A DNA stretch of 64,000 nucleotides, taken from NCBI RefSeq assembly GCF_009789575.1, contig NZ_CP046908.1:3377001-3441000 (forward strand). The letters run 5' to 3'. The stretch's first letter is position 1, and each line of letters opens with the position of its first letter. The position numbers were made by a program, and so were the translations under genes. This stretch comes from Stappia indica. GTDB lineage: Bacteria; Pseudomonadota; Alphaproteobacteria; Rhizobiales; Stappiaceae. The notes under the pieces are model-generated. The model saw nothing but the letters and a program-made list of their open reading frames with translations. It was not told the origin of the DNA and ran no database searches. Positions 42,512-52,979 of this stretch are shown piece by piece.

Positions 42512-43231
42512 CTAGGCCGGGGTTTCTCGGACCGGCAGGCCGTCCAGATAGGCCGCGACCTCGTCGACGGGAATGACGTCGGCATACTTGCAGTTGAGGT
42601 CGAACAGGTTGATGGCGTGGCTGGCCTCGAACCTGTCGAAGGCGGTCTCTTCCGGTATGACGACCTTGAAGTTGAACGAGTAGGCGTCGACGGTGGTCGC
42701 CCGCAGGCATCCCGACGTCGTGCAGCCGGTCATGATCAGCGTGTCGACATCCAGGAAGTTGAGGTGGCTCATGAACAGCGTGCCGAAGAAGGCCGACGGC
42801 TTGCGCTTGCCGATCAGGATGTCCTGCGGCTCGGGCTTGAGCGGCGCCACCGTCTGGGTCGCATGGGTGCCTTCGGTGCTGGTCTTCTCATGGCCGCGAT
42901 GGCTCTTGCCGAGCTGGACGCCGCTGTCGATCATGTCGGGCCGGCGCTCCGACTGGGTATAGAAGACCGGCAGGTTCTTCTGCCGCGCGAGCTTCAGCAG
43001 CCGCTCGATATGCGGCACGGCCTTCCATCCGGCCTCGCCGCAATGGGTGCGGTACTTGCCGAGGCCCTCCTCCTGGTCCTCGCCGGGTTCGTCGCCGCAG
43101 AAATTGTACTGCACGTCGATGATGAAGAGGGCCGGCCGCGTTCCGAAGCCTCCCCGCTTGCCGTAACCCGCGAGCTGGTAGATCCGCTTGTCCTTGTCCG
43201 TCAGAAAGCGGTCCCAGATGCGTTCGCTCAT
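42512..43231 (-). CDS. isochorismatase-fold amidohydrolase (N-carbamoylsarcosine amidase-like)
   Basis: 239 residues. The cysteine hydrolase triad is visible: Asp in ALFIIDVQYNFCGD, Lys in IGKRKPSAFFGT, and Cys in TGCTTSGCLRATTVDAYS. The GCTTSGCLRAT-type loop is that of N-carbamoylsarcosine amidase and maleamate or half-amide amidases. It would remove NH3 or a carbamoyl group from an opened ring. Start 43231 has GGAAAGGAAACGAC ahead. It overlaps the ring-opening hydrolase by ATGA and is the last gene of the four-gene operon. Confidence 0.9.
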   Translation of the reverse strand: MSERIWDRFLTDKDKRIYQLAGYGKRGGFGTRPALFIIDVQYNFCGDEPGEDQEEGLGKYRTHCGEAGWKAVPHIERLLKLARQKNLPVFYTQSERRPDMIDSGVQLGKSHRGHEKTSTEGTHATQTVAPLKPEPQDILIGKRKPSAFFGTLFMSHLNFLDVDTLIMTGCTTSGCLRATTVDAYSFNFKVVIPEETAFDRFEASHAINLFDLNCKYADVIPVDEVAAYLDGLPVRETPA

Positions 43232-44601
43232 GTCGTTTCCTTTCCGGCGTTGCGCTGGATGTATCGTCCGGTCGTGCCTGGTACGGGTGCCGGCCTGCCG
43301 TCCTCGACCAGAATGTTGCCGCGCAGCACCGTGTGGGTGATCGCGCCGCGGCAGCGCTTGCCCTGATAGGGCGAGTAGTCGGAATGCGAGGGCAGGGCCG
43401 CGTGGTCGACCAGCGTCTCGCCGTCGGGATCGACGATCGCGAAATCCGCGTCGTAGCCCGGCGCGATGCAGCCCTTGCCGTCGAGATTGTAGAGCCGCGC
43501 CACGTTGCGGCTGGTGGCGGCGGCAAGCGTCTGCAACGGGATGCCGCGCTTGTGGTGGCCTTCCTCCAGCAGCACCGGCAGGATCTGCGCGATCCCGGGA
43601 AAGCCGGCGCTTGCCCGCCACAGGTCCGGCCCCTTGGTGGCCGCCTTGCGCGGCACATGGTCGGAGCCGATCGTGGAGATGTCGCCCTCGCGCACGCCCT
43701 CCCAGAGCCCGTCGATGTCCGCCTGGGTCCGCAGGGGCGGGTTGACCTTGCCATGCAGGCCGATGGGCGCGTTCTCCGACAGGGACAGGTAGTGGATGCA
43801 GGTCTCCACGTGAATCGGCGGACGCGCGGGATGGCGCATGCGCCGCACCAGGTCGAGGCTTTCCAGCGCCGACATGTGCACGATGTTGACCGGGCATCCG
43901 GCCTTGGCGCCGAAAAAGGCGACGCGGAAGACGTTCTCCGTCTCCAGGAAGTCGGGCGACTGCGCGTTCCAGGCCGGCAGGTCGTTACGCCCCGCCTCCT
44001 TCAGCGGCGCCCGGAAGACCGGGATCACCTCGGTGTTCTCGCAATGCACGCCGACGACGCCGCCGGGGATGCGCGCGCCCACCTGCAGCGCCCGGAACAG
44101 CAGGGCATCGTCGACCTCGGTGAAGCCCTTGGCCGCGCCCGTCTCGCCCTTGTACATGAGATACACCTTGATCGAGGTGACCCCGTGGGTGCGCGCGGCG
44201 TGCGGCAGTTCCTCGATATGGCTTTGCGAGGTGATGCCGAAATGCAGGCCGAAGTCGATGCGCGAGCGCGCCAGCCCCTCCTCGCGCCAGGGGCCGGCGG
44301 ACTCCGTCAGGCTTTCCGCCCGCCAGAAGCTCATCAGCCCGGTGACGCCGCCGAGCATCGCCGTCTGCGTCTCGCTCGCCCAGTCGTTGGCCTTGTCGCC
44401 GAAGCCGATATGGGTGTGCGGATCGATCACGCCCGGAAACACCCACTTGCCGGTGCAGTCGATCACCCGCGTCGCCCGGACCGTCTCGCCGGCCTCGATC
44501 AGCGCGGCGATACGGCCATCGCGGATGCCGATCGACATCCGGCGCAAACCTTCGCCGGGGACCACCACCTCGCCGTTGTGCAGGCACAGATCGTAGGTCA
44601 T
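43228..44601 (-). CDS. hydantoinase/dihydroorotase-type amidohydrolase
   Basis: 457 residues. The metal ligands of cyclic-amide hydrolases are visible: DPHTHIGFG (HxH), the Lys expected to be carboxylated in TSIKVYLMYKG, GVHCEN, NIVHMSA, and IGSDH. The enzyme class opens cyclic amides or ureides such as hydantoin, dihydropyrimidines, allantoin, dihydroorotate, or imides. It overlaps neighbours by ATGA on both sides, so it is coupled to the SnoaL-like and amidase genes. Together with the latter it looks like a ring-opening then deamidating pair. Substrate unknown. Confidence 0.92.
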   Translation of the reverse strand: MTYDLCLHNGEVVVPGEGLRRMSIGIRDGRIAALIEAGETVRATRVIDCTGKWVFPGVIDPHTHIGFGDKANDWASETQTAMLGGVTGLMSFWRAESLTESAGPWREEGLARSRIDFGLHFGITSQSHIEELPHAARTHGVTSIKVYLMYKGETGAAKGFTEVDDALLFRALQVGARIPGGVVGVHCENTEVIPVFRAPLKEAGRNDLPAWNAQSPDFLETENVFRVAFFGAKAGCPVNIVHMSALESLDLVRRMRHPARPPIHVETCIHYLSLSENAPIGLHGKVNPPLRTQADIDGLWEGVREGDISTIGSDHVPRKAATKGPDLWRASAGFPGIAQILPVLLEEGHHKRGIPLQTLAAATSRNVARLYNLDGKGCIAPGYDADFAIVDPDGETLVDHAALPSHSDYSPYQGKRCRGAITHTVLRGNILVEDGRPAPVPGTTGRYIQRNAGKETT

Positions 44602-45025
44602 CGCGCGGCTCCGGCTCCGGCCGTTTCACCGATCCCGGCCCGGGCAAGGCGCCGCTCGCCGGCGTCGTTCCACACCTCCTGGCGGACGATGCGGCCGTTC
44701 TCGAACTCGAACCGGTCGGCGAAGCGGATGCCGTCGAACGCCTCGCCGTCTGCCCAGCGCCCGTACAGCGTTCCGGTGACCAGCACGGCGATCCGGGTGC
44801 CGGCGTGCCAGCTCTCGCTGCGCTCGACCGTCTTGCGCACCTCGGCGTAGCGGCCGCCGGAGCTCGCGGCGATCTCCTCGACGCTGGCAAACGTCCGCCC
44901 GCCGGGGAAGATCATGCTCACCCCGGGGCCGACATGGCGCCGCGCATCGTCGAGACGCCGGTCCTCCATGGCTGACAGATAGTCGAGCGCCGCCGTTCGG
45001 GCGCTGGCAAGGTCGGCGGTAGCGG

Positions 45026-45029
<4 letters not shown>
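44598..45029 (-). CDS. SnoaL-like (nuclear transport factor 2 fold) protein
   Basis: 143 residues with the cone-shaped NTF2/SnoaL pattern: ALDYLSAMEDRRLDDARRHV, a central GRTFASVEEIAAS, and RFEFENGRIVRQEVWND. Members are isomerases, cyclases, dehydratases or binding proteins. Start 45029 has no unusual site and overlaps the aconitase gene by ATGA. Its place between the hydratase-type and ring-opening genes suggests it acts on a pathway intermediate, for instance isomerisation, but the role is open. Confidence 0.82.
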
Positions 45030-47773
<2,744 letters not shown>

Positions 47774-47798
47774 GCAGGGAGGGATAGGCCGCACCCGA

Positions 47799-47816
47799 AA
47801 AAGTGTCAACACTTTT
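47799..47816. promoter_or_regulatory. GntR operator 1 (aconitase/GntR intergenic)
   Basis: AAAAGTGTCAACACTTTT: 8-base inverted arms around CA. The same sequence recurs with small changes at 50687, 50719 and 50894. It lies 26 bases before the aconitase ATG and 36 before the GntR start, where it would cover both promoters. Confidence 0.8.
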
Positions 47817-47851
47817 GTGGGGGCGGAAGGCAGGAAAGGGGTGCTCGATTG

Positions 47852-48637
47852 ATGCCCTTGGGGTTATCAACTAGTCTCCTGCAACCCTCGACATCTGGAA
47901 GCTTCGACCGCGTGGAACAAAGACAGGCAAAGACGATCGTTGACGGGGTCTTCGAGCGCATTCTCGGCAAGGTTATCGGGGGGGAAATCCCGCCCGGCGG
48001 TGCGGTCAACGAGCTCGCGCTGGCCGCCGAATTCAATGTCAGCCGCGGCCCCGTGCGCGAGGCGGTGAAGCGGCTGCAGGGAACCGGGCTGATCACCAAG
48101 GAGCCCTTCCTGAAGGCGAGGGTGATCAATCTCACCGTCTCCGACATGATCCAGATCTTCCAGCTGCGCGAGGCGGTCGAGGCCATGTCGGTCAGGCTGG
48201 CCACGATGACCATGTCCAGCGCGGAGATCGACGACCTGCTGCTCGCCTTCAGCAGCGGCAAGAACGGGTCCGAGATGCCGGTGCTCGACATTCATGTGCG
48301 GATCGCGGAAGGCAGCGGCAACGAGAGGATCCGCGCCTTGTTGTGCGAGGAACTCTACTATCTGCTGCGGCTCTACCGGGTGCAGTCCGGGCGCATGCCC
48401 GGGCGGCGCGAGACGGCCTATTCCGAGCACTGGCAGATCCTGCGGGCCATGAAGGCGCGCGATCCGGACCTGGCCGAGTCGCTGATGCGGGCGCATATCG
48501 CGCGGGCCACCCAGACGCTGCAGAACCTGCTGGTCGAGCAGGGCGCCGAGCAGGGAGCCGCGCCGGGCACCGGGCCGGGCACTGGGCCGGGAACTGGGCC
48601 GGAGCCGCGCCCCGGCCGCTCTCGCGGCAAGGGCTGA
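47852..48637 (+). CDS. GntR-family transcriptional regulator (FCD type)
   Basis: 261 residues. Winged helix-turn-helix (about 25-95, PGGAVNELALAAEFNVSRGPVREAVKRLQGTGLI) and an all-helical FCD effector domain (about 105-240), in which His ligands (HVRIAEGSGN, HWQILRAM) can bind a metal and carboxylate. FCD regulators commonly sense organic acids. Start ATG 47852 has GGAAAGGGG upstream (a TTG is one codon earlier). The C-terminus is a repetitive Gly-Pro-Gly-Thr tail. It is the only regulator in the cluster, and four matching palindromes in the two control regions mark it as the shared repressor or activator. Confidence 0.93.
   Translation: MPLGLSTSLLQPSTSGSFDRVEQRQAKTIVDGVFERILGKVIGGEIPPGGAVNELALAAEFNVSRGPVREAVKRLQGTGLITKEPFLKARVINLTVSDMIQIFQLREAVEAMSVRLATMTMSSAEIDDLLLAFSSGKNGSEMPVLDIHVRIAEGSGNERIRALLCEELYYLLRLYRVQSGRMPGRRETAYSEHWQILRAMKARDPDLAESLMRAHIARATQTLQNLLVEQGAEQGAAPGTGPGTGPGTGPEPRPGRSRGKG
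48566..48601 (+). repeat. three tandem 12-base units in the GntR C-terminus
   Basis: GGCACCGGGCCG, GGCACTGGGCCG and GGAACTGGGCCG follow one another (48566, 48578, 48590) and encode a (GTGP)n tail. In-frame 12-base units can gain or lose copies without a frameshift, so tail length may vary between strains. Confidence 0.85.
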
Positions 48638-48667
48638 CTGGCACCTGAGCTGACTGGCACCTGAAGG

Positions 48668-48701
48668 GGAGGGGCCCCGTCCTTTCGGAAAGGGCCCCTC
48701 C
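48668..48701. terminator. hairpin between convergent GntR and tctC genes
   Basis: GGAGGGGCCC (48668-48677) pairs perfectly with GGGCCCCTCC (48692-48701). It lacks a T-tract, so intrinsic termination is uncertain, but the position between convergent units fits a bidirectional terminator. Confidence 0.5.
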
Positions 48702-48720
48702 GGCAGTGGCTGGCCGGCTG

Positions 48721-49677
48721 TTACTGCGAGAAGTCGATGCTCGACAGCAGCTCCTTGTAGAAGGCGTCCTCGGCGACGAGCGCCTCGCCGAACGCCGTCG
48801 GCCCGGCATAGTCCAGTTCCGTCAGCGTCTGCGCGGCATAGTTCGTCATGGTCTGTCCCTCGATGGCCTTGCGCACCGCGTCCGAGAATGCCTCGACCAC
48901 CTCGTCCGGCGTTCCGGCGGGCGCCCAGAAACCGATATTGGCGGGAAGCGCCAGGTCGACGCCGCCCTCGATGAGCGTCGGCAGGTCCGGTGCCAGCTTG
49001 GCCCGGGTCGCACCGAGCTGGGCCAGGGCCACCAGCTTGCCGCCCTCGACCTGCGGCAGGATCGCTGCGGCGAAGCCGAGCACCAGGTCGACCTCCCCGG
49101 CAACGGCGGAGGCAACGGCAGGCGTCACGCCCTTGAAGGGGATGTGGAACAGGTCGATGCCGGCGGCCCGGGCAACGGCTTCCGCCGCGATATGGGTCGC
49201 CCCGCCGGTGCCGGCGCTGCCGTAGCTGACCTTGTCGGGATTTGCCTTGGCGTAGGCGACCATCTCTTCCAGGGTCGCGAACGGCGCGCCGACGCGGGCG
49301 GCCATGACATTGGGTCCGACCGCGACGCGGGCGACCGCGCGCAGCGCATCGAAGCCATAGGGAAGCTCGCGCTGATGCGGCGCGACGGTCTGCACCGAGC
49401 TGACCGCGAACAGCAGCGTATAGCCGTCCGGATCGGCATTGGCGACGAAGGCCCCGCCGATGGTGCCGCCCGCGCCGGGCTTGGTTTCCACGACCACGGG
49501 CTGGCCGAGGTTTTCGGAAACGTCCCTGGCAAGGGTGCGGGCGAGCGTGTCCGTGCCCCCCGGCGAATACGGCACGATGACGGTGATCGGGCGCGTCGGA
49601 TAGTCCGCGGCAAGGGCCGCAGCGCCTCCCGCGATGATGGCCAATCCGCTCAGTAGTCCTGTCAGCAGCTTCCTCAT
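48721..49677 (-). CDS. tctC: tripartite tricarboxylate transporter substrate-binding protein (TctC/Bug)
   Basis: 318 residues: signal peptide (1-24, ending AAALAAD) and a Bug/TctC domain. YPTRPITVIVPYSPGGTDTLART and GQPVVVETKPGAGGTIGG are typical, with the ligand-cradling loops around residues 30-45 and 145-165 (YGSAGTGGATHIAAE). It captures a carboxylate in the periplasm for TctAB. It is 34 bases after the lyase gene and on the same strand, so lyase and binding protein are cotranscribed. Confidence 0.95.
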   Translation of the reverse strand: MRKLLTGLLSGLAIIAGGAAALAADYPTRPITVIVPYSPGGTDTLARTLARDVSENLGQPVVVETKPGAGGTIGGAFVANADPDGYTLLFAVSSVQTVAPHQRELPYGFDALRAVARVAVGPNVMAARVGAPFATLEEMVAYAKANPDKVSYGSAGTGGATHIAAEAVARAAGIDLFHIPFKGVTPAVASAVAGEVDLVLGFAAAILPQVEGGKLVALAQLGATRAKLAPDLPTLIEGGVDLALPANIGFWAPAGTPDEVVEAFSDAVRKAIEGQTMTNYAAQTLTELDYAGPTAFGEALVAEDAFYKELLSSIDFSQ

Positions 49678-49711
49678 GACATCCTCCCTTGGTTGAACAA
49701 TATGCCGTGAT

Positions 49712-50638
49712 CTAGTGGGATTTCTGGTACTTCGCTTCGAACGCCTCGAGCGTCAGCAATTGCGCCTCGAGCTTTCGGGCGCTGTCGTAGTCCATCAGCG
49801 ACATGATCTCGTCGATGCCCACAAGCAGGTCGGGCCGGTCGATCGGCTCGCCGGTTGCGACGACCTGCTGCATCAGTTCCAGCGCAGTGCGCATGCCCAT
49901 GATTGCGGCGGCCGGCAGCATGCGCGGCAGGCTGATGCGGCGCACGCCGAGCTGCTTCAGCCGCGGCAGCGGGATCAGGGGGGTGGTCGGGCGGCTGCGA
50001 ATGCCGAAGCCCATGTTCACCGAGACCGGGACGGCGGATGCGGCCACGACCCGGCCGATGGTCTCCTCGGAATTCACCGCATCGACGAAGATCACGTCGG
50101 CGCCGGCCTCGACATAGGCGCGCACGCGCCGCTCGACGCCTTCGATGCCCTCGACCGCGAGCGCGTCGGTGCGGGCGATGATGACGAAGTCGTCGTCGCT
50201 TCGCGCAAGGCACGCCGCCTCGATCTTCTTCTGCATCTCCGCCGTGCCGACGACTTCCTTGCCCGGCATGTGGCCGCATCGCTTCGGACTGACCTGGTCC
50301 TCGATGTTGATGCCGACGGCGCCGATCGCCTCGAATTCCCGCACGGTATGGAAGACATTGACGGGATTGCCGTAGCCCGTGTCGGCGTCGCAGGTCACCG
50401 GGACCGACACGGCCCGCACGATGGCCCGGCACTGGTCGAGGTTCTCGCTCAGGCCCATGATGCCCATGTCGGCGATGCCCATCCGCGAGTTGGAAATCGC
50501 CGCCCCGCTCGTCGCCACGGTCTTGTAGCCGGCAGCTTCGGCCAGCCGCGCGCTGTATCCGTCATAGGCGCCGGGACTGACGATCAGGTCGTCTCCCGCC
50601 AGCATCTCCCTGTAGATCCGAGCCTTTGTCTTTGTCAT
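49712..50638 (-). CDS. isocitrate lyase/PEP mutase-family lyase (methylisocitrate lyase-like)
   Basis: 308 residues, TIM-barrel ICL/PEPM family. Mg-binding CDADTGYGN (about 85-93) and the catalytic loop EDQVSPKRCGHMPGKE with the KRCGH signature show a C-C lyase and not a mutase or a decarboxylase. Relatives are 2-methylisocitrate lyase, 2,3-dimethylmalate lyase and oxaloacetate hydrolases. It would release pyruvate, glyoxylate or a similar 2-oxo acid from a substituted malate or isocitrate. Start 50638 follows the GntR operators at 50687 and 50719. Confidence 0.92.
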   Translation of the reverse strand: MTKTKARIYREMLAGDDLIVSPGAYDGYSARLAEAAGYKTVATSGAAISNSRMGIADMGIMGLSENLDQCRAIVRAVSVPVTCDADTGYGNPVNVFHTVREFEAIGAVGINIEDQVSPKRCGHMPGKEVVGTAEMQKKIEAACLARSDDDFVIIARTDALAVEGIEGVERRVRAYVEAGADVIFVDAVNSEETIGRVVAASAVPVSVNMGFGIRSRPTTPLIPLPRLKQLGVRRISLPRMLPAAAIMGMRTALELMQQVVATGEPIDRPDLLVGIDEIMSLMDYDSARKLEAQLLTLEAFEAKYQKSH

Positions 50639-50686
50639 GTGGTCCGCCCGTTTGGCCCGCGCCCGGAAGCGCGGACGCTCGTTCCT

Positions 50687-50704
50687 AAAAGTGTCAACAC
50701 TATT
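50687..50704. promoter_or_regulatory. GntR operator 2 (lyase/tctB intergenic)
   Basis: AAAAGTGTCAACACTATT, identical to operator 1 except for one base in the right arm. It lies 49 bases before the lyase ATG. Confidence 0.78.
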
Positions 50705-50718
50705 GCTTCGCCGAAATC

Positions 50719-50732
50719 GACTGTCAACAGTC
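50719..50732. promoter_or_regulatory. GntR operator 3 (lyase/tctB intergenic)
   Basis: GACTGTCAACAGTC: perfect arms around CA with the same TGTCAACA core as operators 1 and 2, 14 bases beyond operator 2. Confidence 0.65.
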
Positions 50733-50893
50733 TGTTTCAGGCCTCCGGCGCCTTGGTCCGTGGCGCGTCGGAACGGTATGCGCAGGCTGCCTCCCGAAAA
50801 ATCACGGATAGCCAGCAAAATCGGGGGTTTGACCCGATCTCTGCGGAGTGCTCCCAGGCCGCAAGATCCGGACGATCTTTCGGAGTTCATGAC

Positions 50894-50909
50894 AAACTGT
50901 TGACAGTTT
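50894..50909. promoter_or_regulatory. GntR operator 4 (upstream of tctB)
   Basis: AAACTGTTGACAGTTT: 7-base arms around TG, the reverse-complement form of the TGTCAACA core. It lies about 110 bases before tctB. The 185 bases between operators 3 and 4 show no gene. Confidence 0.7.
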
Positions 50910-51020
50910 TGCGGGTGGATGCGAGACATGTCCGCATCGTGCTACCGGGAGGGGCAGACGGGCGATCTCAGGAAGGATCGCCGTCGGAGCACTCGAAGCC
51001 GCTGGGAGGCAAGACGTCCG

Positions 51021-51458
51021 ATGGGTCTTGGAAAGCCGCAGGTCATTGCAGCACTTCTGTTTTCGCTCGTGGGCGCGGGGGCTCTGGCGCTCGCTGCGTC
51101 CTATCCCATGGGCACGCTGACGCGCATGGAAGCCGGGTTCTTTCCGGTGATGCTGAGTCTTTCGCTGATCGTGCTGGCGCTGGTCGCCGCGATCCAGGAC
51201 CGCAACGCAAGCGCCGAGCCGGTCGGCATCCGCCTCTGGCCCTTCGTCTGCATCATGGGCGGCATCGCCTTGTGGGCCCTGCTGATCGAGCGGGCCGGTT
51301 TCTTCGCCGCCACGTTCCTGCTCACCGTGTGCACGGCCGCTGCCGAGGTCGAGAACACGATCCTGCGCGGCATCGTTCTCGCCGCCTGCGTCTCGCTGGG
51401 CGGCTATGCGCTGTTCGTGCTCGGTCTCGGCATCCCGCTCACCCCGTTCGGAAGATAA
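51021..51458 (+). CDS. tctB: tripartite tricarboxylate transporter small membrane subunit TctB
   Basis: 145 residues with four membrane helices, as expected of TctB: KPQVIAALLFSLVGAGALALA, a Gly-rich first loop (MGTLTRMEAGFFPVMLS), and two C-terminal helices. I set the start at 51021, with GGGAGG 11 bases upstream, and not at an in-frame ATG at 50919 that would add an Arg-rich soluble tail overlapping the operator region. It is 3 bases before tctA. Confidence 0.88.
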   Translation: MGLGKPQVIAALLFSLVGAGALALAASYPMGTLTRMEAGFFPVMLSLSLIVLALVAAIQDRNASAEPVGIRLWPFVCIMGGIALWALLIERAGFFAATFLLTVCTAAAEVENTILRGIVLAACVSLGGYALFVLGLGIPLTPFGR

Positions 51459-51461
51459 CCC

Positions 51462-52979
51462 ATGGATCTCGTCTCCGGGCTTTCTCTCGGTGTCCAGACG
51501 GCCGTCACCTTCGACGGCTTGCTGTTCTGCTTCGTCGGCGTCTCGATCGGCATGTTCATCGGCGTGCTTCCGGGCATCGGTCCGCTCGCCGCCGTCGCGA
51601 TGGTCCTGCCGATCACCTACCATCTCGAGCCGCTCAGCGCGTTGATCATGCTGGCCGGCATCTTCTACGGCGCCCAGTACGGCGGATCGACCGCCTCGAT
51701 CCTGCTCAACCTGCCCGGCACCTCGACCACGGCGGTGACCGCGCTGGACGGCTACCCGATGACCCGGCAGGGCCGGGCCGGCGTCGCGCTGTTCATCACC
51801 ACGATCACCTCCTTCGCAGGCGGGTGTTTCGCCATCGTCCTGCTGATGAGCTTCGCCCCGGCGCTCGGCCGGATGGCGCTCGAGTTCTCCTCGGCCGAGT
51901 ATTTCTCCATCATGCTGCTGGGCCTGGTGGCCGCGGCGACCATGGCCATCGGCTCGCCGTTGAAGGGCATGGTCTCGGTGACCGCCGGGCTGCTGCTGGC
52001 GATGGTCGGGATCGACAGCACCTCGGGCGATGTGCGCTACACGTTCGGGATTCTCGAGTTGCAGGACGGCCTCAATCTCGTCGCCATGGCGATGGGCCTG
52101 TTCGGTGTGGCCGAGATCCTGAAGAATGCCGGCCTGCCGGAACGTGCGGCAAAGGACATCGCCAAGGTTCGGGTCCGCGACCTGCTGCCCACCCGCGCGG
52201 ACATGGCCCTGACCTGGAAGCCGACCCTGCGCGGGTCGGTCATCGGCTCCTTCATCGGGGTGTTGCCCGGCGCCGGGCCGACGCTGGCCGCCTTTCTCGC
52301 CTATGCGGTGGAGAAGCGGGTGTCGAAGACGCCCGAGCGGTTCGGACACGGCGCGATCGAGGGGATCTCCTCGCCCGAGGCCGCCAACAATGCCTCGACC
52401 CAGGCGGCGTTCATCCCGACCCTTGCGCTCGGCATTCCCGGCGACGCCACCATGGCCGTGCTGATGGGAGCGATGATGATCCACGGCATCGTGCCGCGGC
52501 CGGAGTTCTTCACCACCAATGCGGATCTGTTCTGGGGGCTCGTCGTCAGCTTCTGGATCGGCAACCTGATGCTGCTTGTTCTCAACATTCCGCTGATCGG
52601 CCTCTGGGTCCGGATGCTGACCATTCCCAAGCGCATCCTGTTCCCCGCCGTCATCTTCTTCATCTGCGTCGGTGTCTACAGCGTCAACAACAACCCGTTC
52701 GACGTCCTGATGGTGATGGTGTTCGGCGTCATCGGCTATTTCATGAACCTCTACCAGTACCCGACGGCGCCGCTGCTGATGGGCTTCATCCTGGGGCCCC
52801 TGATCGAGCAGCATTTCCGCCGGGCGCTGCTGTTCTCGCGCGGCGACCTGACCACCTTTGTCGACAGGCCGATCAGCGCCGCCTTCCTGGCGGTGACGGC
52901 CCTGCTGCTGATATCGCTGGTCGTGCCGGCCCTGCGCAAGCGCCGGGAGCCGGTGGGCAGCGCCAGCGAGGCGGAGTAG
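51462..52979 (+). CDS. tctA: tripartite tricarboxylate transporter large membrane subunit TctA
   Basis: 505 residues with about 12 membrane helices. GVLPGIGPLAAVAMVLPITY, YGAQYGGSTASILLNLPGT and the repeated GVLPGAGPTLAAFLAY are the conserved TctA segments. With TctB and TctC it takes up a carboxylate using a cation gradient. Start 51462 is 3 bases after the tctB stop. Substrate is set by TctC and cannot be read off. Confidence 0.96.
   Translation: MDLVSGLSLGVQTAVTFDGLLFCFVGVSIGMFIGVLPGIGPLAAVAMVLPITYHLEPLSALIMLAGIFYGAQYGGSTASILLNLPGTSTTAVTALDGYPMTRQGRAGVALFITTITSFAGGCFAIVLLMSFAPALGRMALEFSSAEYFSIMLLGLVAAATMAIGSPLKGMVSVTAGLLLAMVGIDSTSGDVRYTFGILELQDGLNLVAMAMGLFGVAEILKNAGLPERAAKDIAKVRVRDLLPTRADMALTWKPTLRGSVIGSFIGVLPGAGPTLAAFLAYAVEKRVSKTPERFGHGAIEGISSPEAANNASTQAAFIPTLALGIPGDATMAVLMGAMMIHGIVPRPEFFTTNADLFWGLVVSFWIGNLMLLVLNIPLIGLWVRMLTIPKRILFPAVIFFICVGVYSVNNNPFDVLMVMVFGVIGYFMNLYQYPTAPLLMGFILGPLIEQHFRRALLFSRGDLTTFVDRPISAAFLAVTALLLISLVVPALRKRREPVGSASEAE

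Follow-up and report, generated by a model that had tools for sequence, protein, structure and literature searches.

Cyclic imides are degraded in Blastobacter by a hydantoinase-type imidase, which opens the ring, and a half-amidase, which frees ammonia. Hydratases of the aconitase family are paired with lyases of the isocitrate lyase (ICL) superfamily in the 2-methylcitrate cycle (AcnD and PrpB), and the anaerobic nicotinate pathway joins amidohydrolase-fold ring opening to aconitase-family hydration of a substituted maleate (by dimethylmaleate hydratase, of a two-subunit type) and ICL-superfamily cleavage (by dimethylmalate lyase). An isonicotinate-type pathway leads from citrazinate via cis-aconitamide to cis-aconitate. 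Here we describe a cluster of nine genes that shares features with each of these systems, encoding a ring hydrolase, an amidase, a hydratase, a lyase, a SnoaL-like protein, a tripartite tricarboxylate (TTT) transporter and a GntR regulator. It occupies positions 42512-52979 of a 64,000-nucleotide stretch of the Stappia indica genome (contig NZ_CP046908.1, positions 3,377,001 to 3,441,000; hereafter the window). The likeness to the Blastobacter system is one of reaction type: a dedicated hydratase and lyase follow here, and the acid is probably substituted. From the 2-methylcitrate cycle the cluster differs in failing the AcnD and PrpB cut-offs, in a loop peculiar to its lyase and in the addition of a ring hydrolase and amidase; from the nicotinate pathway it differs in a hydratase formed by a single AcnA-type chain and in an isochorismatase-fold amidase. 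It shares the imide-to-amide-to-cis-aconitate logic of the isonicotinate/citrazinate pathway, but its hydratase and lyase are dedicated and altered, and no pyridine hydroxylase was found among the neighbours examined. No description of the cluster or of a porphobilinogen catabolic pathway was found in the titles and abstract starts of the matches listed, which is weak evidence. The conserved regulon is real and its general chemistry moderately likely; we tentatively read the cluster, with somewhat less than even confidence, as a catabolic regulon for carboxylated cyclic imides, probably GntR-controlled, and regard porphobilinogen as a bold lead.

Gene content and a shared operator

The nine genes formed three operons plus gntR, with four operator copies (no strand assigned) in the control regions:

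42512-43231, minus strand: isochorismatase-fold amidase, proposed half-amide hydrolase (PF00857, 88.4 bits)
43228-44601, minus strand: cyclic-amide (proposed imide) hydrolase of the hydantoinase/dihydropyrimidinase fold, assigned from fold family and metal-centre residues
44598-45029, minus strand: SnoaL/NTF2-like protein (SnoaL_2), no role assigned
45026-47764, minus strand: AcnA-family hydratase of a divergent subfamily, with CTTC[SG]GK (PF00330 and PF00694)
47802-47813: operator AGTGTCAACACT, between the hydratase operon and gntR
47912-48637, plus strand: GntR/FCD regulator (PF00392 and PF07729)
48721-49677, minus strand: TctC solute-binding protein (PF03401, 208 bits)
49712-50638, minus strand: ICL/PEP-mutase superfamily lyase (PEP_mutase/ICL) of a divergent subfamily, with KRCGH
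50690-50701: operator AGTGTCAACACT, upstream of lyase-tctC
50720-50731: operator ACTGTCAACAGT, in the lyase/tctBA control region
50896-50907: operator ACTGTTGACAGT, upstream of tctBA
51021-51458, plus strand: TctB (PF07331)
51462-52979, plus strand: TctA (PF01970, 534 bits)

Operon 1 comprised the hydratase, SnoaL, hydantoinase-fold and isochorismatase-fold genes, operon 2 the lyase gene and tctC, and operon 3 tctBA. The chain of overlapping genes described in a first-pass annotation was located as three 4-base overlaps within the hydratase operon (43228-43231, 44598-44601 and 45026-45029), and the KRCGH lyase with tctC, tctBA and the FCD-type gntR had the families given there. Both GntR and FCD domains were detected in the regulator, which is transcribed divergently from the hydratase operon with an operator in between, and the TctA, TctB and TctC domains of the TTT transporter were all present. 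Genes to the left (DUF924, LtrA and an ion channel) and right (MHYT-GGDEF-EAL) were seemingly unrelated to the cluster.

The first-pass annotation had placed these operons under one regulator, and to this we add a shared 12-bp operator, ASTGTNNACAST. Four exact copies occurred in the window, all within the two control regions of the cluster, compared with 0.03 expected, and four were reached in 0/100 shuffles. The palindrome common to both control regions was A[CG]TGTNNACA[CG]T. The presence of the same operator in all three promoters bears out a single regulon, which the GntR protein probably controls; we infer that it binds the operator. Among relatives, the operator preceded the hydratase match by 54-81 bases (L020, L021, L023-L026, L028, L029 and L110) or lay before the lyase (L036, L037, L041, L042 and L045), ahead of a flavin-monooxygenase operon (L022, L027, L030, L046 and L047) or, in other relatives, in the tct control region. 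In a count that left out L001-L010, L018 and L116-L122, 32 of the 38 cluster loci had exact copies (64 sites over 731 kb, a number inflated because L011/L021, L012/L029 and L019/L052 are apparently the same regions twice) as opposed to 7 of 72 other loci (10 sites in 1.09 Mb). Six cluster loci had no exact copy, among them L044, whose row holds the hydrolase only. A one-mismatch operator was situated between hydratase and gntR in L043, L054, L109 and L127, and neither exact nor one-mismatch sites were found between hydratase and lyase in L031. The operator also occurred beside a second TctA-type gene (31-32% identity) at L012:14523, L029:15191 and L013:5070, in L029 accompanied by a protein that matched TctC only under the cut-off; this second gene is probably another member of the regulon.

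Conservation and distribution

We evaluated the frequency of the cluster in 86 other genomes of the family, in which the ring hydrolase (E 1e-60 or better) was encoded by only four, all of the window's genus. G079 had all nine genes, as did G076, where they were spread over two contigs; G082 and G085 had eight of the nine in the fetched pieces, with tctC outside the piece. TctA was 83-84% identical in these genus mates. Three tested genus mates without the hydrolase (G074, G078 and G083) each had only one AcnA-type relative (49-50% identity) and no lyase relative above 47%. From a collection of named genomes, the best 80 of at least 325 hydrolase relatives were taken as loci, of which 30 had a hydrolase at least 54% identical to that of the window and 50 one at most 41% identical. 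Lyase, hydratase, hydrolase and amidase (the core) occurred together in 26 of the 30, the remaining four (L027, L036, L044 and L052) ending at contig ends, and gntR was present in 25 of those 26 (not found in L031). Six of the more distant loci were compared (L048-L051, L053 and L055): the hydratase was found in none, a lyase in two (43-48%) and an amidase in one (44%). The gene set is thus conserved together, both in these 26 loci and in the genus mates, and a test that could have refuted the first-pass annotation was passed.

Hosts included Afifella, Nitratireductor, Bosea, Rhodoplanes, Gluconacetobacter and Roseovarius, with the four enzymes together in members of Hyphomicrobiales, Rhodobacterales, Acetobacteraceae and Rhodospirillaceae, and the cluster was also carried on Antarctobacter and Shinella plasmids. 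A class sample of 384 other genomes yielded one with the amidase (E 1e-75), a phylum sample of 397 yielded none (E 1e-60), and the gene was present in 7 of 61 Bosea-group genomes. The cluster is rare and patchily distributed and in some cases lies on a plasmid, which makes horizontal movement probable. In one contig of a metagenome-assembled genome (L028:3589-5024), tctA appeared as two adjacent matches, a possible frameshift. The window's own genome held a second cluster (G000:C1:956500-966800, part of it in L105). Its aconitase-family matches were separate for the large and the small subunit (called LeuCD-like from the matches alone), its PrpB-like lyase shared 46% identity with that of the window, and a FAD_binding_2 relative shared 42% with the Stappia cluster copy; the hydratase and lyase matches were similarly spaced in G074, G076, G078, G079, G082 and G085.

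Hydratase and lyase form divergent subfamilies

In all four enzymes, the catalytic residues that were checked were intact. The hydratase had been called AcnD-like, a label that did not hold: it scored 1083 on the AcnA equivalog (TIGR01341, cut-off 945) and fell short of AcnD (TIGR02333, 761 against 1420), and its three Fe-S cysteines were kept in 28/28 cluster rows. Cluster hydratases nevertheless branched apart from housekeeping AcnA (support 100/100), and the Ile and Asn that follow CTTC in the housekeeping pocket (5/5 rows) were replaced by Ser or Gly at residue 515 and Lys at residue 517 in all 28. An Arg of the swivel domain, presumably Arg580 of mitochondrial aconitase, was discarded as a substrate indicator; cluster rows varied at the matching position, which was His in 5/5 housekeeping rows. 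The lyase failed the PrpB cut-off (TIGR02317, 229 against 354). Its usual active-site Glu was replaced by Asp and an RxRP loop was added, both invariantly in 28/28, the substrate loop following the barrel strand at 205-208. The loop NMGFG[IL]RxRPTTP together with Arg216 was found in all 28 cluster lyases and in none of six other superfamily proteins (one of them without KRCGH). Given the failed cut-off and this invariant loop, the pyruvate product suggested by the first-pass annotation gains no specific support. Judged from the residues, the changes in both enzymes would suit a substrate that is larger than aconitate or methylisocitrate and more anionic.

A proposed route from cyclic imide to oxo acid

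We give the conversion of an imide to an oxo acid roughly even weight. TctCBA would bring in an anionic ring compound, the hydantoinase-fold enzyme would cleave the imide ring, yielding a half-amide from which the isochorismatase-fold enzyme would strip NH3 to leave a substituted cis-butenedioate of the maleate type. The divergent AcnA-type hydratase would then add water across the cis double bond, and the resulting hydroxy acid would be split by the divergent PrpB-like lyase, in an aldol-type cleavage, into a 2-oxo acid and a dicarboxylate. The same order (ring hydrolase, amidase, hydratase, lyase) had been suggested before and is consistent with the enzyme families. It is also supported by recurrence of these enzyme types in more distant clusters: MmgE/PrpD-family genes stood in the aconitase's place beside hydrolase and amidase on Methylobacterium and Variovorax plasmids (aconitases elsewhere in those genomes lying outside the comparison), and a PrpB-like lyase (37-38% identity) accompanied hydrolase and amidase in Hydrogenophaga and Methylobacterium. 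No hydratase was seen in the Hydrogenophaga stretch and no lyase in the Variovorax stretch. Among the substrates previously offered, the imide is the best fit, because it is the simplest ring that, once opened, gives the second hydrolase an amide to act on and the aconitase a cis-alkene diacid; hydantoins and pyrimidines appear less likely.

The likeliest ring would be a pyrrole oxidised to a maleimide with carboxymethyl and carboxyethyl side chains, from which a nine-carbon tetracarboxylate would yield 2-oxoglutarate and succinate (or glutarate and oxaloacetate); succinate and 2-oxoglutarate would account for all nine carbons. Relatives of the Stappia cluster may join the same core from the amine, by way of an aminotransferase, an aldehyde dehydrogenase and a flavin monooxygenase.

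Accessory modules and linkage to hemC

Accessory genes in other lineages fell into two modules. In module one, the core and TTT genes were joined by a FAD_binding_2 flavoprotein and a short-chain dehydrogenase/reductase (SDR) gene (families scanned on Bosea copies), both absent beside the window cluster; the best FAD_binding_2 relative in the window's genome was 42% identical. The SnoaL gene was present in most clusters that carry TTT genes. In module two, the core's companions were a FAD_binding_3 monooxygenase, whose best solved matches were PnpA and HspB, an Amdase-like protein, an aldehyde dehydrogenase and an ABC importer with polyamine-like permeases in Bosea. Isomerase activity of the Amdase-like protein is doubtful because it has no Cys at the Cys motif of the aligned maleate isomerase. 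Four Bosea contigs carried both modules, and in one Bosea-group genome (G874) no recognised TTT-type genes were found within 13 kb beyond the lyase.

A HemL-like class III aminotransferase accompanied module two in four lineages, with 53-59% identity among Shinella, Gluconacetobacter and Pararhodobacter and 58-60% between Bosea and Gluconacetobacter. The three copies scanned scored at most 323, under the HemL cut-off of 527. The seven Bosea-group genomes with the core amidase were the same seven that had the aminotransferase, and in all of them a hemC match ran convergent with it, ending about 20-160 bases away. A gene in the same convergent position on the Shinella plasmid passed the HemC cut-off (TIGR00212, 333 against 164), and the GCS cysteine motif was kept in the four cluster-linked Bosea-group HemC proteins examined. 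As Bosea and Shinella HemC were only 38-41% identical and Shinella HemC was up to 63% identical to that of other genera (a comparison without the genome of L025), the two hemC pairings look independent.

This linkage suggests a pyrrole-derived ring of the porphobilinogen type, an identification that we consider possible but doubtful. Porphobilinogen would suit the modules because its aminomethyl group could serve the transaminase and dehydrogenase and its pyrrole the monooxygenase, while its acetate and propionate side chains would give a four-carboxylate substrate, fitting the extra Lys and Arg residues. The aminomethyl group would be transaminated, oxidised and lost as CO2 and the pyrrole oxidised to the maleimide; the adjoining hemC would keep tetrapyrrole synthesis fed while the pool drains, and the window strain would take up already oxidised imide acids via TctCBA. 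That some Alphaproteobacteria consume porphobilinogen or derived pyrrole acids, with the window core forming 2-oxoglutarate, succinate and ammonia, is speculative, and several observations weigh against it. Nothing tetrapyrrole-related was linked to the cluster within the window. No hemC was found on the loci of Gluconacetobacter and Pararhodobacter, which do have the aminotransferase. On the loci of Roseovarius type (L022, L030, L046 and L047) the aminotransferase itself was not found, and no operator copy was found ahead of hemC. In five of the seven Bosea-group genomes no hemC other than that of the cluster was found, so the cluster copy may be the resident gene, and three Bosea-group genomes without the core had a 76-77% identical hemC among unrelated neighbours. 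An Arg also occurred at the Arg214 position in two of the six other lyases. Finally, the best solved relatives of the amidase work on a carbamoyl group, which suits a ureide.

Alternative substrates

Should the substrate be a cyclic ureide, a hydantoin or dihydropyrimidine would be opened to a ureido acid, the isochorismatase-fold enzyme would remove the carbamoyl group, and hydratase and lyase would act on the deaminated skeleton. The two hydrolases agree with this in part. The nearest families of the ring hydrolase were D-hydantoinase (262 bits) and allantoinase (257 bits), and a Rid protein and a luciferase-type monooxygenase were present in a Bosea cluster; the best solved matches of the amidase were N-carbamoylsarcosine amidohydrolases. 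The ring hydrolase fell below the D-hydantoinase, allantoinase and dihydroorotase equivalog cut-offs (at best 262 against 393, among the best 25 of 57 families), so that it belongs to the fold family and to no named enzyme. Its His62, His64, Lys145, His186, His242, Asp314, Arg318 and Lys319 were invariant in 30/30 rows, including what we take to be the HxH, carboxylated Lys, two His and Asp of the metal centre. In the amidase, which matched PF00857, Asp39, Lys142 and Cys175, presumably the catalytic triad of isochorismatase-fold amidases, were invariant in 28/28 cluster rows. A ureide would give an amino or oxo acid rather than an aconitase-type cis-alkene diacid, and would require an extra deaminase; no such gene was conserved alongside the core across the loci compared. 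We regard a ureide as unlikely.

A six-membered imide is improbable. Here a citrazinate-like pyridine-dione would pass through cis-aconitamide, cis-aconitate and isocitrate to glyoxylate and succinate, using the same four reaction types; the hydratase is still above the AcnA cut-off, and TTT carriers take tricarboxylates. Yet a housekeeping aconitase in the host genome would make a dedicated one needless, the hydratase and lyase pockets are invariantly altered, and no molybdenum hydroxylase was found among the neighbours scanned or seen annotated, a part of all neighbours. Among the matches listed, no paper dealt with a gene cluster for isonicotinic and citrazinic acid degradation, and none was on bacterial degradation. 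We also hold out little prospect for a maleimide with a smaller substituent, such as hematinic acid (methyl and carboxyethyl) from heme or chlorophyll breakdown, which would be cleaved to pyruvate and glutarate. This shares the chemistry of the carboxylated imide, would allow direct TTT import and comes nearest to the pyruvate product suggested earlier, but it leaves the aminotransferase and hemC linkage unused, and the added basic residues suggest more carboxylates. That the operons act on unrelated substrates and have only the regulator in common is very improbable, since gene order and transporter do vary between lineages but the four enzymes are joint from Hyphomicrobiales to Rhodospirillaceae and share one operator.

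Two further candidates were set aside. Histamine or imidazoleacetate had been prompted by the aminotransferase, aldehyde dehydrogenase and flavin monooxygenase; that pathway ends in aspartate and needs neither hydratase nor lyase. Siderophore imides had been considered for two LysA-like decarboxylases in L036 and L037, which were not conserved. In these loci, from Xinfangfangia and Gemmobacter, the tandem pair (L036:3411-6208 and L037:3405-6208) lay upstream of the lyase with a methyltransferase gene beyond it (families scanned on L037).

Other clusters with related hydrolases

The Variovorax, Hydrogenophaga and Methylobacterium nodulans plasmids (L111, L112 and L115) carried a hydrolase of 38-40% and an amidase of 40-43% identity, with CobW/GTP-binding, MmgE/PrpD, FAD-protein or lyase genes as neighbours. 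In plasmid records H11-H24 (Aminobacter, Shinella and Phyllobacterium), hydrolase relatives of about 36% identity adjoined a gene annotated as dipicolinate synthase subunit DpsA. Beside the Shinella cluster (L109:2295-8971) were another AcnA, an MmgE/PrpD gene, two thiamine-diphosphate enzyme genes and TTT genes.

Significance

The operator and the residue signatures allow direct tests in named strains, for example Stappia stellulata DSM 5886 and Bosea lupini LMG 26383. If our reading is true, CTTC[SG]GK and NMGFGxRxRPTTP would mark new substrate subfamilies of the aconitases and the ICL superfamily, and the cluster would take a substituted cyclic imide all the way to central metabolism. Were porphobilinogen or a derived pyrrole acid the substrate, a heme precursor would have a catabolic fate, which would point to a way for pyrrole acids from tetrapyrrole decay to re-enter the carbon and nitrogen cycles.

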